Assembly: GCA_902566775.1 (NCBI GenBank)
Contig: CACFKF010000005.1
Span: 1-64,000, forward strand
DNA: 64,000 nucleotides
DNA from: an uncultured Pelagibacteraceae bacterium
GTDB taxonomy: Bacteria > Pseudomonadota > Alphaproteobacteria > Pelagibacterales > Pelagibacteraceae
Reading direction: 5' to 3'
Numbering within the stretch: the stretch's first letter is position 1; each line of letters starts with the position of its first letter. Shown piece after piece: positions 39,460 to 42,752 of this stretch. A program made the position numbers and the translations under genes. Under the pieces are notes generated by a model. It searched no databases. It saw only the letters and a list, made by a program, of their open reading frames with translations, and was not told the DNA's origin.

Positions 39460-40143
39460 TTATAATAAATTGATTATTTTTTTAATTCCAGTTTTTTTTG
39501 TTGATAGCTTAGATTGCATCAAGCAAGCCTGGGATTTTAGGATATGTCCATCCTTTAAAATTCTTAAATTGTTAGCTTTTAATGTTGCTCCTGTACTAGT
39601 TATATCTGATATAATTTCTGCAGTACCAGTAAATGGTGCAACTTCTGTGCTTCCCAAACTATTAACTAATTGAAATTGTGTCACTCCTTTAGAGTATAAA
39701 AATTTTCTTGTTAAATTTGGATATTTTGTTGCAACTCTTAAAAGTCTTTTTTTTTTCTTTTTAAATTCATCAGCCACTTCATCTAAATCTAATAGTGTCT
39801 GAACATCTAGCCACAAGTCTGGAATGGCTAAAACTAAATTTGCATTACCAAAATTATACTTTTTACTTATTAAAATATTATTTTGTATATTTATTTCACT
39901 CTCTTTAAGTAAATCATATCCTGAAAAACCTATATCAATATTTCCCAATGACAACTGCTCTATACATTCCCTAGCATGCAAATAAATTATTTTGGTATTT
40001 GGAATTTTTTTAATATATCCAAATAAATCTCTTTCACCTCTTTCAGAATTAATATGTAATTTATTCTTTTTAAAAATATTAATTGTATCATGCTTTAACC
40101 TTCCTTTGGACGGAAGTCCTATGTTAATAATATTTTTAGTCAT
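39460..40143 (-). CDS. hisG: ATP phosphoribosyltransferase, short form
   Basis: LGLPSKGRL-type N-terminus (INIGLPSKGRL), IDIGFSGYDLL, GTAEIISDITSTGATLKANNL; 227 aa. Confidence 0.92.
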   Translation of the reverse strand: MTKNIINIGLPSKGRLKHDTINIFKKNKLHINSERGERDLFGYIKKIPNTKIIYLHARECIEQLSLGNIDIGFSGYDLLKESEINIQNNILISKKYNFGNANLVLAIPDLWLDVQTLLDLDEVADEFKKKKKRLLRVATKYPNLTRKFLYSKGVTQFQLVNSLGSTEVAPFTGTAEIISDITSTGATLKANNLRILKDGHILKSQACLMQSKLSTKKTGIKKIINLL

Positions 40144-41192
40144 ATAAATTCATATTTACAGCTGCACCTACTGCTGGGATTTTTCTAAATCCTAAGTTGC
40201 TAGTTAGTTGATCATATCTTCCACCTGATATGAAATTTTTAAATTTTGATTTTATTTTCACTTCAATAGAAAAGATCATTGAGCTATATAATTCAACTTC
40301 TTTACCATTAGAAGCAGAAAACTCTATTTTTAAATTTTTATTATTTTTTTTACTTAGAGGAAAAAAACCTTTACCAACAATTATATTAATTTTGTTTTTT
40401 TTAAAAAAAGTATTTAAGATTTTAGGTGCTTTTTCTAATGGACATTTAATTTTTAAAAATTTTTTAATGATATTTTTATTTTTTTTTCCAGTTGAAGATT
40501 TTCTTGGATCTTCAATTTTCATATTAAATCTATCTAATATTTCTTTATAAGTTCGGCCTGCAATAATTTTATTTTGATTTTCTTTCCTCATTTTTTTGGT
40601 ATCTTAACTTATCTGTTTCGACAAATACTGAATCTATATCTAGATTGGTTTCTAATCTTTTTAATAGTTCGTTAAAATAATTTTCATTCCAATAATGCCT
40701 TTTAAGTCTATTTCTCCATCTTCTTGGAATGTCTAGTTTGTTAATTAATAAGTTAAATAATTCAACATTCCCAATTTTTAAAACTGACTTTTTAAAACCA
40801 CTACTTTTTAAAATTTTTAAAGACGTATCAATTATTTCTTTGTCATCTTTCTGTTTATTCTCAGAGCCTAGAATTTCATAACCAATTTGATTTTTTATAA
40901 TACTGTCTTTTTTTTGGTAAGTTTTTCTAAATGCTTCGCCACTGTAAAAAACTTTTTCTCTTTTATTCTTTTTGTTTTGAATAAATCTTATTACTGAAGA
41001 AATTGTTAGATCTGGTCTTAAACAAAGTTCTTTCCCATTTAAATCATAAAATGAAAATAAGAATCTCTTGAAATTTTCTCCAGATCTTTGAAGAATGTAT
41101 TTAGTCTCAAGAACTGGATCTAAAATAATATTATTAAAACCTTTAGATTTAATTGATCTAAGGATTTTTTCAGATAATTTTTTTGATTTCAT
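40136..41192 (-). pseudogene. hisZ: ATP phosphoribosyltransferase regulatory subunit HisZ, split by frameshift (41192-40569 and 40591-40136)
   Basis: N-part LDPVLETKYILQRSGENFKRFLFSFYDLNGKELCLRPDLTISSVIRF; C-part NKIIAGRTYKEILDRF...FISGGRYDQLTSNLG. Removing one A from CCAAAAAAATGAGG fuses them as DKLRYQKMRKENQNKIIAGRTY. Confidence 0.85.
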
Positions 41193-42504
41193 CGATTAAA
41201 TTTTCAACTTTTACAGATAATTCTTCGCCTGTTTTAAGATTTCTTAATTTTACTTCAGCTTTTTTTATTTCATCTTCACCATAGAAGATTGCACATGGAG
41301 ACTCTATTTTATTTGCATATTCCATTTGTTTTTTTAATTTACCTTCTCCAGGATAAATTTCTGAACTGATGTTGGTCGATCTAAGTTTATTTAATATATC
41401 AATATATTGTTTAGTTTTGTTTTGATCAAAAACACATATGACCACCGGTCGTGTAGACTTTATTTTGAAATCTTTTTTTTGCATTAAAGCAAAAACAAGC
41501 CTATCAAGACCAATCGATATTCCTGTTGCTGGACAGTCAAGATTTCCAAAATTACTCACAAGATTGTCATACCTTCCTCCGCCACCTATCGAGCCAAATT
41601 GTATTGTTTGTCCTTTTAAATTTTTTACATCAAAGTTTAAATTGACCTCAAAAATTGGTCCTGTGTAATATTCTAAACCCCGTATAACCGATGGATCAAA
41701 TTTATAATTTTTAAAGTTATATGCTTCAAATATTTTTATAATTTCTAAGACATCTTCGCTATCAGGAACATCGCTCTTTAAAGCATTTTCTATTATTTTA
41801 ATCTGTTCGTTTTTAAGGTTTGCACCTTTTGTATAATCTCCTGATTTATCTTTTCTACCTTCACCTAAAAGTTTTTGGGCCTCACTCCAGCCAAGTCTAT
41901 CAATTTTGTCAAGAGCACGTAGAATAATTGATATTTGATCTTTCGATTTGATTTTTAATTGCTCAAATAGTTTATCTGTAAATTTTCTTGAAGAAATTTT
42001 TACGATATAATCAGCTTTGCCAAGTCCACACTTTTCTAATATTTCAGATATTAATATGCAAAGCTCAGCATCAGCTTGTAAATTTTTTGTTCCGACATAA
42101 TCTGCATCAAATTGAAGAAATTCTCTATATCTTCCAGGTCCAGGCTTTTCATTTCTCCAAACAGTTCCTAGTTGATAACGCTTAAAAGGTTTTGGAATTT
42201 CATTGAAATTTTTTGCAACATATCTTGCTAAGGGGGCTGTCAAATCGTATCGAAGTGATAACCATTTATTCTCATCTTTAAATGAAAAGACTCCTTCGCC
42301 TGGTCTATCTTTATCGGGTAAAAATTTTCCAATACTCTCCGTATACTCAAAACTTGGAGTTTCGAGATATTGAAAGCCATACTTGATCATCACCTCTTTA
42401 ATATTAGAAATTACAAAATCTCTGATTAATAGTTCTTTTTCTTGTCTATCTTCAAAACCTGAGGGTAATTCCTTAGAAGGTTTTATCTTTTTTTCTTTTT
42501 CCAT
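41170..42504 (-). CDS. hisS: Histidyl-tRNA synthetase
   Basis: LPSGFEDRQEKELLIRDFV, FRYDLTAPLARYVAKN-type motif, GSIGGGGRYDNLV; start trimmed to MEKEKKIKPSKELPSG because the longer ORF runs through tRNA-His. Confidence 0.95.
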   Translation of the reverse strand: MEKEKKIKPSKELPSGFEDRQEKELLIRDFVISNIKEVMIKYGFQYLETPSFEYTESIGKFLPDKDRPGEGVFSFKDENKWLSLRYDLTAPLARYVAKNFNEIPKPFKRYQLGTVWRNEKPGPGRYREFLQFDADYVGTKNLQADAELCILISEILEKCGLGKADYIVKISSRKFTDKLFEQLKIKSKDQISIILRALDKIDRLGWSEAQKLLGEGRKDKSGDYTKGANLKNEQIKIIENALKSDVPDSEDVLEIIKIFEAYNFKNYKFDPSVIRGLEYYTGPIFEVNLNFDVKNLKGQTIQFGSIGGGGRYDNLVSNFGNLDCPATGISIGLDRLVFALMQKKDFKIKSTRPVVICVFDQNKTKQYIDILNKLRSTNISSEIYPGEGKLKKQMEYANKIESPCAIFYGEDEIKKAEVKLRNLKTGEELSVKVENLIDEIKKII

Positions 42505-42508
42505 TTTT

Positions 42509-42585
42509 TGGTACACGGGGACAGATTCGAACTGTCGACCTTCGGTTCCACAAACCGCTGCTCTAACCAACTGAGCTACCCGTGC
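42509..42585 (-). tRNA. tRNA-His (anticodon GTG), CCA encoded
   Basis: GCACGGGTAGCTCAGTTGGTTAGAGCAGCGGTTTGTGGAACCGAAGGTCGACAGTTCGAATCTGTCCCCGTGTACCA folds as a cloverleaf. Confidence 0.93.
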
Positions 42586-42752
42586 TCCTTTCTTTGTTTT
42601 ATACTAATTGTGGTTAATTTTAAAATTATAAAATGATTAAATTGCTAGCGTGCAGCCAGCATGAAAATGATGTCTGTGAAAGTTTATTGATACTTTAATT
42701 TTTCTTATCATTGCGAGTTAAATAACACTTATTTTTATTATTGCAAGCAAGT

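Follow-up and report, generated by a model that had tools for sequence, protein, structure and literature searches.

Genes and features at the hisS locus

The window analysed here is a 64,000-nucleotide stretch from an uncultured Pelagibacteraceae bacterium, and the locus described below lies on its minus strand. A tRNA-His(GTG) gene at 42585..42509, called by both ARAGORN and Rfam, ends in an encoded CCA (42511-42509), which is followed by an AAAA linker (42508-42505) and then by the ATG of hisS (42504-42502). This juxtaposition was the subject of the original prediction, and its coordinates are confirmed by direct reading and by both programs. The prediction also held that the junction leaves no room for a Shine-Dalgarno (SD) sequence, which is borne out by the 4-nt linker, and that tRNA-His and hisS share one transcript, which is very likely because they are separated by only 4 nt. 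The tRNA gene lacks G-1, having an A at position -1, and has a G1-U72 pair and A73. It is the sole tRNA-His gene found in this genome, which is 79% complete.

The hisS gene (41170..42504) encodes histidyl-tRNA synthetase (HisRS) and matches PF13393 (E 8.7e-37) and PF03129 (E 1.3e-13). Its open reading frame (ORF) has 443 codons plus a stop, and its end falls at 41170-41173 depending on how the stop is counted. The protein is 96% identical to the HisRS of AG-414-N18, the nearest named record, and carries an RNEKPGPGR motif that is typical of the G-1-independent HisRS of Alphaproteobacteria. It is followed by hisZ (40136..41192), HisZ-like by Pfam, and by hisG, which encodes ATP phosphoribosyltransferase (39460..40143; PF01634, E 5.9e-35). 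The predicted order of hisS and then overlapping hisZ and hisG is thus confirmed by Pfam, except that the hisZ of the window is split by a frameshift in the assembly into two ORFs (41192-40569 and 40591-40136). The break occurs at an A7 run (CCAAAAAAATGAG; window 40569-40591) and is a candidate sequencing error or real slippage. In the close relatives L187-L198, hisZ is a single open frame of about 350 codons.

Several further elements lie 5' of the tRNA. An SD-like AAGGAG (42585..42590) overlaps tRNA position 1. Next to it is a -10-like element, TAGTATAAAAC (42591..42606), which is weak by itself and possibly part of a second promoter 15 nt 5' of the tRNA; TAGTAT, TAATAT or TAAGAT is found 13-17 nt 5' of tRNA-His in most loci inspected. 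We also considered a mini-ORF (ATG-CAG-CAG-TAG) over the tRNA 5' end and dropped it, as the AT at -2/-1 is lost in some clades. Beyond these elements, 50-130 nt upstream, are a short histidine-rich ORF and a hairpin, which had been overlooked in the original prediction.

A histidine-codon leader ORF

The leader ORF (42637..42711), found by direct reading and an ORF scan, has 24 codons and reads MIRKIKVSINFHRHHFHAGCTLAI up to its stop. It includes the codons CAC AGA CAT CAT TTT CAT at 42678-42661. Just 5' of it, inspection revealed a weak promoter-like stretch (42715..42749, approximate ends) consisting of TTGCTT, 17 nt and TGTTAT, which was not reported by a promoter consensus scan of the window; a related -10-like block occurs 5' of the leader ORF in other loci.

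A scan of upstream regions for ORFs containing 3 or more His within 7 codons picked one out in 140 of the 151 non-redundant loci of the family, compared with 121 of 3000 random windows (4%). Several of the 11 loci missed by the scan have a degenerate version that contains two His (THRICLHSL, for example). The motifs that recur are THRHHFHAG, SHSHRVHARLLLS, AKHHFAHARLLLS, THRHHPHAEHALS and HSHHHFHAKHGLG. The His codons drift almost exclusively between CAT and CAC and seldom to other codons, an alternation that indicates selection on the residue itself. In most loci the ORF ends ~40-70 nt 5' of the tRNA, and it also precedes the exceptional loci in which the gap between tRNA-His and hisS is long.

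A comparable arrangement is present in the sister family, where a His-rich ORF of the type MFNFKHHHYHI, followed by a stop, lies with a hairpin directly 5' of hisS, the tRNA-His gene being located beyond a transporter gene. In the sister-family loci L141-L153, a conserved ACCCC(C)T stretch follows the His leader ORF.

A hairpin at the last histidine codon

In the window, a hairpin with a 7-bp stem (H2, TGCTGGC-TGCAC-GCTAGCA; 42643..42661) begins in the last His codon of the leader ORF. RNAalifold found no structure in a 95-sequence alignment, and the hairpin analysis was therefore anchored at the His codon. With this anchoring, a hairpin of at least 6 bp is found at the last His codon in 237 of 238 loci, and the CAY codon touches its 5' edge in 237 of 237. 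The stem sequences differ from clade to clade while the pairing is kept: GCTGGC/GCTAGC, GCTAGGC/GCTTAGC, GCTGAGC/GCTTAGC, ATAGCC/GGCTAT and GCAAGC/GCTTGC. Within one group, only G-U changes are seen in the H2 stem; two-sided changes are found between clades only and depend on the anchoring at the His codon. Part of the family has an extra hairpin over the His codons, with two-sided changes from C-G to U-A and from U-A to A-U. Its covariation amounts to 6 cells, and none of 500 shuffles reached as high.

A clear U-run after the hairpin is absent in most clades, and 119 of 182 loci have 1-4 T among the 8 nt that follow it. Searches with Rfam gave no match to a leader family in the window (E up to 10) or in six sister-family loci (E up to 1), and no T-box match upstream of hisS in the window. 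Long-range pairing of the leader ORF start with the sequence after the hairpin was also tried and rejected as too weak: the mean longest match was 7.3, compared with 6.3 when the partner came from another clade.

Conservation of the junction

We searched for HisRS in 197 family genomes, plus 147 sampled from the order and 289 from the class, and then retrieved the loci. Comparison of the tRNA-hisS spacing across relatives, one of the checks that accompanied the original prediction, showed that the gap between CCA and ATG is 3-6 nt in 179 of the 182 non-redundant Pelagibacteraceae loci (4 nt in 130, 5 in 42, 3 in 4 and 6 in 3), and is 11 nt, 28 nt and undefined in one locus each. The juxtaposition recurs beyond chance across the Pelagibacteraceae. 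It is kept next to HisRS sequences only 44-50% identical to that of the window and next to differing tRNA-His sequences. In the HisRS tree, all family members form one clade (100/99) with several lineages inside it. Longer gaps occur in four divergent loci of the same genus (L154, L155, L156 and L158), the first three of which come on top of the loci just counted.

A number of individual loci show peculiarities. In the locus with the undefined gap (L216), a longer A-run at the hisS start shifts the ATG out of frame, perhaps through an assembly error. The spacers of L154 and L158 can fold into a small hairpin, with AGGA in the loop of the latter. Degenerate tRNA-His genes precede hisS in L073, L075-L078, L087 and L157, with T-loops such as AGCGTAA and unusual D-loops, and all of these except L157 are missed by ARAGORN. 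A degenerate tRNA-His is the sole one in the complete genome G017 (30 of 32 tRNA hits inspected). In L064, L065, L066 and L067, the tRNA-His is of the type usual for the genus but the HisRS encoded after it is of another lineage, which looks like an in-place replacement of the synthetase gene. Finally, three fairly complete genomes yielded no HisRS. This probably reflects gaps in the assemblies, since in one of these genomes a hisZ-like match starts at a contig end.

Outside the family the arrangement changes. The tight junction is absent in the sister family, where tRNA-His, if seen, lies ~1.4 kb upstream of hisS, and in the 4 loci examined an opposite-strand MFS-type transporter gene lies between the two. 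None of the 26 loci from other Alphaproteobacteria showed a tRNA immediately 5' of hisS.

One way to account for so persistent a neighborhood is that a co-adapted pair of tRNA-His and HisRS has stayed adjacent through exchange as a cassette. Within one genus, the same locus is occupied by several HisRS lineages and widely differing tRNA-His genes, as such exchange would lead one to expect. The pair does not always move together, however, as the HisRS lineage changed in L064-L067 and the tRNA type of the genus stayed, and linkage by co-inheritance leaves the leader unexplained. We consider this reading rather unlikely; it can be combined with one based on the histidine leader.

Tight tRNA-gene junctions are common in these genomes

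We surveyed two complete genomes, G017 and G009, inspecting about 30 tRNAs in each; eight (tRNA-His counted) and nine of these, respectively, lie 1-12 nt before a coding sequence. In 29 of 30 genomes of the family (L387-L416), tRNA-Gln, used as a control, is located 3-7 nt 5' of an unrelated gene, which mostly has about 420 codons. tRNA-Leu, tRNA-Pro, tRNA-Gly and others also tightly abut unrelated genes. The median same-strand gap in the window is 3.5 nt, and an SD core precedes 12% of first ATGs in the window vs 8% of control positions, the first ATG being taken as the gene start by a rough rule. A predicted fold of the tRNA plus the hisS start leaves the AUG unpaired. Given the tRNA-Gln control, the other tight tRNAs, the low use of SD sequences and the unpaired start, the 4-nt gap without an SD is a habit of these genomes, a matter of ordinary compaction and no special device.

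Compaction could in principle be the whole story, with the junction as neutral packing, the His-rich ORF as an unrelated small gene and the operon free of histidine regulation. The short intergenic distances, the tight junctions at many tRNAs and the missing U-run after the hairpin in most clades all fit. What such an account leaves unexplained is why all clades keep the His codons at the edge of a hairpin and why the sister family does so too, ahead of hisS, and we regard it as unlikely.

The original prediction had instead put the junction forward as a candidate tRNA-processing switch specific to HisRS: RNase P and 3' cleavage of tRNA-His would leave a near-leaderless hisS mRNA, and the cleavage rate would set HisRS synthesis. 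The family has indeed kept the junction while HisRS and tRNA type changed, and an RNase E/G gene was found in 6 of 6 genomes. This idea is not borne out, however, as tRNA-Gln and several other tRNAs show the same geometry ahead of genes that have no evident connection with the tRNA. SD-less starts like that of hisS are general in the genome, and the start codon is predicted to be unpaired beside the folded tRNA. No RNase Z above the curated cut-off was found in the 6 genomes, and the gap is longer in the four divergent loci. The tRNA-Gln control and the two-genome survey led us to reject a histidine-specific processing device as the main explanation, and we consider it quite improbable. Processing of the tRNA may still generate the hisS 5' end, with RNase E/G as a candidate endonuclease if the tRNA-His and hisS RNAs get separated, but regulation by processing has no support here. 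The SD-less tRNA-gene junctions seen across the family lend themselves to tests of how mRNAs begin in a streamlined alphaproteobacterium.

Least probable is control of the kind known from thrS, in which HisRS would bind the tRNA-His part of its own uncut mRNA, acting as a regulatory domain, and block the ribosome, AAGGAG and ATG being a ribosome site split by the tRNA and held together by it; an SD-like 4-mer lies at -12..+1 of the tRNA in 144 of 182 loci, such a motif stands beside only one other tRNA gene inspected in the same genome, the acceptor stem would bring both ends together in the predicted fold, and thrS is reported to have a split ribosome site. Whole genera nevertheless lack the motif, as do all 11 loci with the GCCCTGG type of tRNA, where the junction is still present, and other tRNA-gene junctions do without it. 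Because of this loss in several genera, we treat an SD bridged by the tRNA as a rival only; both the operator and the regulatory-domain role of the uncut tRNA seem very unlikely. If they were true, one RNA would combine a His-codon leader, a genuine tRNA operator and the synthetase in a closed homeostatic loop.

A proposed histidine-responsive operon

The sequences establish a conserved His-codon ORF, a hairpin in its last His codon, a fixed place for both 5' of tRNA-His, and the tight gap. Clustered His codons that end in a hairpin upstream of tRNA-His, hisS and hisG point to ribosome-mediated control by the charging of tRNA-His. We therefore favor, with a probability of roughly two in three, a single histidine-responsive operon of the Pelagibacteraceae (leader, tRNA-His, hisS, hisZ and hisG) that would be controlled by ribosome stalling at the His codons. 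It is the leader ORF and the hairpin, rather than the 4-nt junction, that argue for histidine-specific control.

In this operon the leader ORF would be translated, and when His-tRNA-His is scarce the ribosome would stall on the leader His codons. A ribosome stalled there would mask the 5' side of the hairpin stem and thereby alter transcription of tRNA-His, hisS, hisZ and hisG, starvation most likely resulting in more expression. The sign of the response is uncertain, because in many loci the stop codon of the leader ORF lies beyond the hairpin, and a translating ribosome would also open the hairpin there. Since most clades have no clear U-run after the hairpin, intrinsic termination is only putative. 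The second promoter-like element between the leader and the tRNA could allow the leader to be bypassed. hisS itself would be read by SD-independent initiation at its start, which is A-rich and unpaired; the message could be the uncut transcript or the RNA left once the tRNA has been excised.

As the sister family has the His ORF 5' of hisS with no tRNA between them, the simplest history would be that tRNA-His came between an older leader and hisS in the Pelagibacteraceae.

SAR11 bacteria number among Earth's most abundant cells, and their gene regulation is generally considered sparse. If the proposed operon is real, a leader decoded by tRNA-His precedes the genes for tRNA-His itself, its synthetase and the first enzyme of histidine biosynthesis, forming a compact feedback loop that would act on tRNA supply, charging and amino-acid synthesis.

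Comparison with known systems

Histidine leader peptides are classical, the enterobacterial his operon being one example. Like those attenuators, the SAR11 locus has histidine-related genes immediately preceded by a short ORF in which His codons cluster, with RNA hairpins after the ORF. It differs from them in that the controlled unit opens with the gene for the tRNA that decodes the leader, that the His codons are interrupted (HRHHFH), and that most clades have no clear intrinsic terminator and there is no Rfam match. The SAR11 leader resembles a His attenuator in how it would work; we do not place it in that class, since its terminator is only putative and Rfam gave no match. Histidine leader peptides have been predicted for Bacillus hisS* and hisZ by Naville and Gautheret (PMC2965389), and a structured-RNA search in Ca. 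Pelagibacter ubique (PMC2704228) is silent in its main text on hisS, histidine and leader peptides. Our literature search, which covered few subscription papers, returned no report of leader-peptide attenuation in SAR11, and the leader is apparently unreported.

The junction recalls the tRNA punctuation of mitochondria, where a tRNA likewise ends a few nucleotides from the next start codon at several sites of the genome. Here, the setting is a free-living bacterium with an encoded CCA, and the formation of 5' ends by tRNA excision is only putative.

The translational operator of Escherichia coli thrS is a split ribosome site with tRNA-like domains. The SAR11 junction shares with it a tRNA-shaped structure beside the start codon of a synthetase, with an SD-like motif on the other side; unlike thrS, it has a genuine tRNA, the motif is absent from whole genera, and binding of HisRS is putative.

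The tRNA and synthetase themselves belong with the G-1-less pair of Alphaproteobacteria described in PMC3937112, sharing the absence of an encoded G-1, A73 and the GPGR in the motif-2 loop of HisRS. The available text of that paper reports the derived traits in 7 of 8 SAR11 strains and does not mention operon order or a leader. Compared with the pair as described there, part of the genus studied here has further, degenerate forms of tRNA-His.
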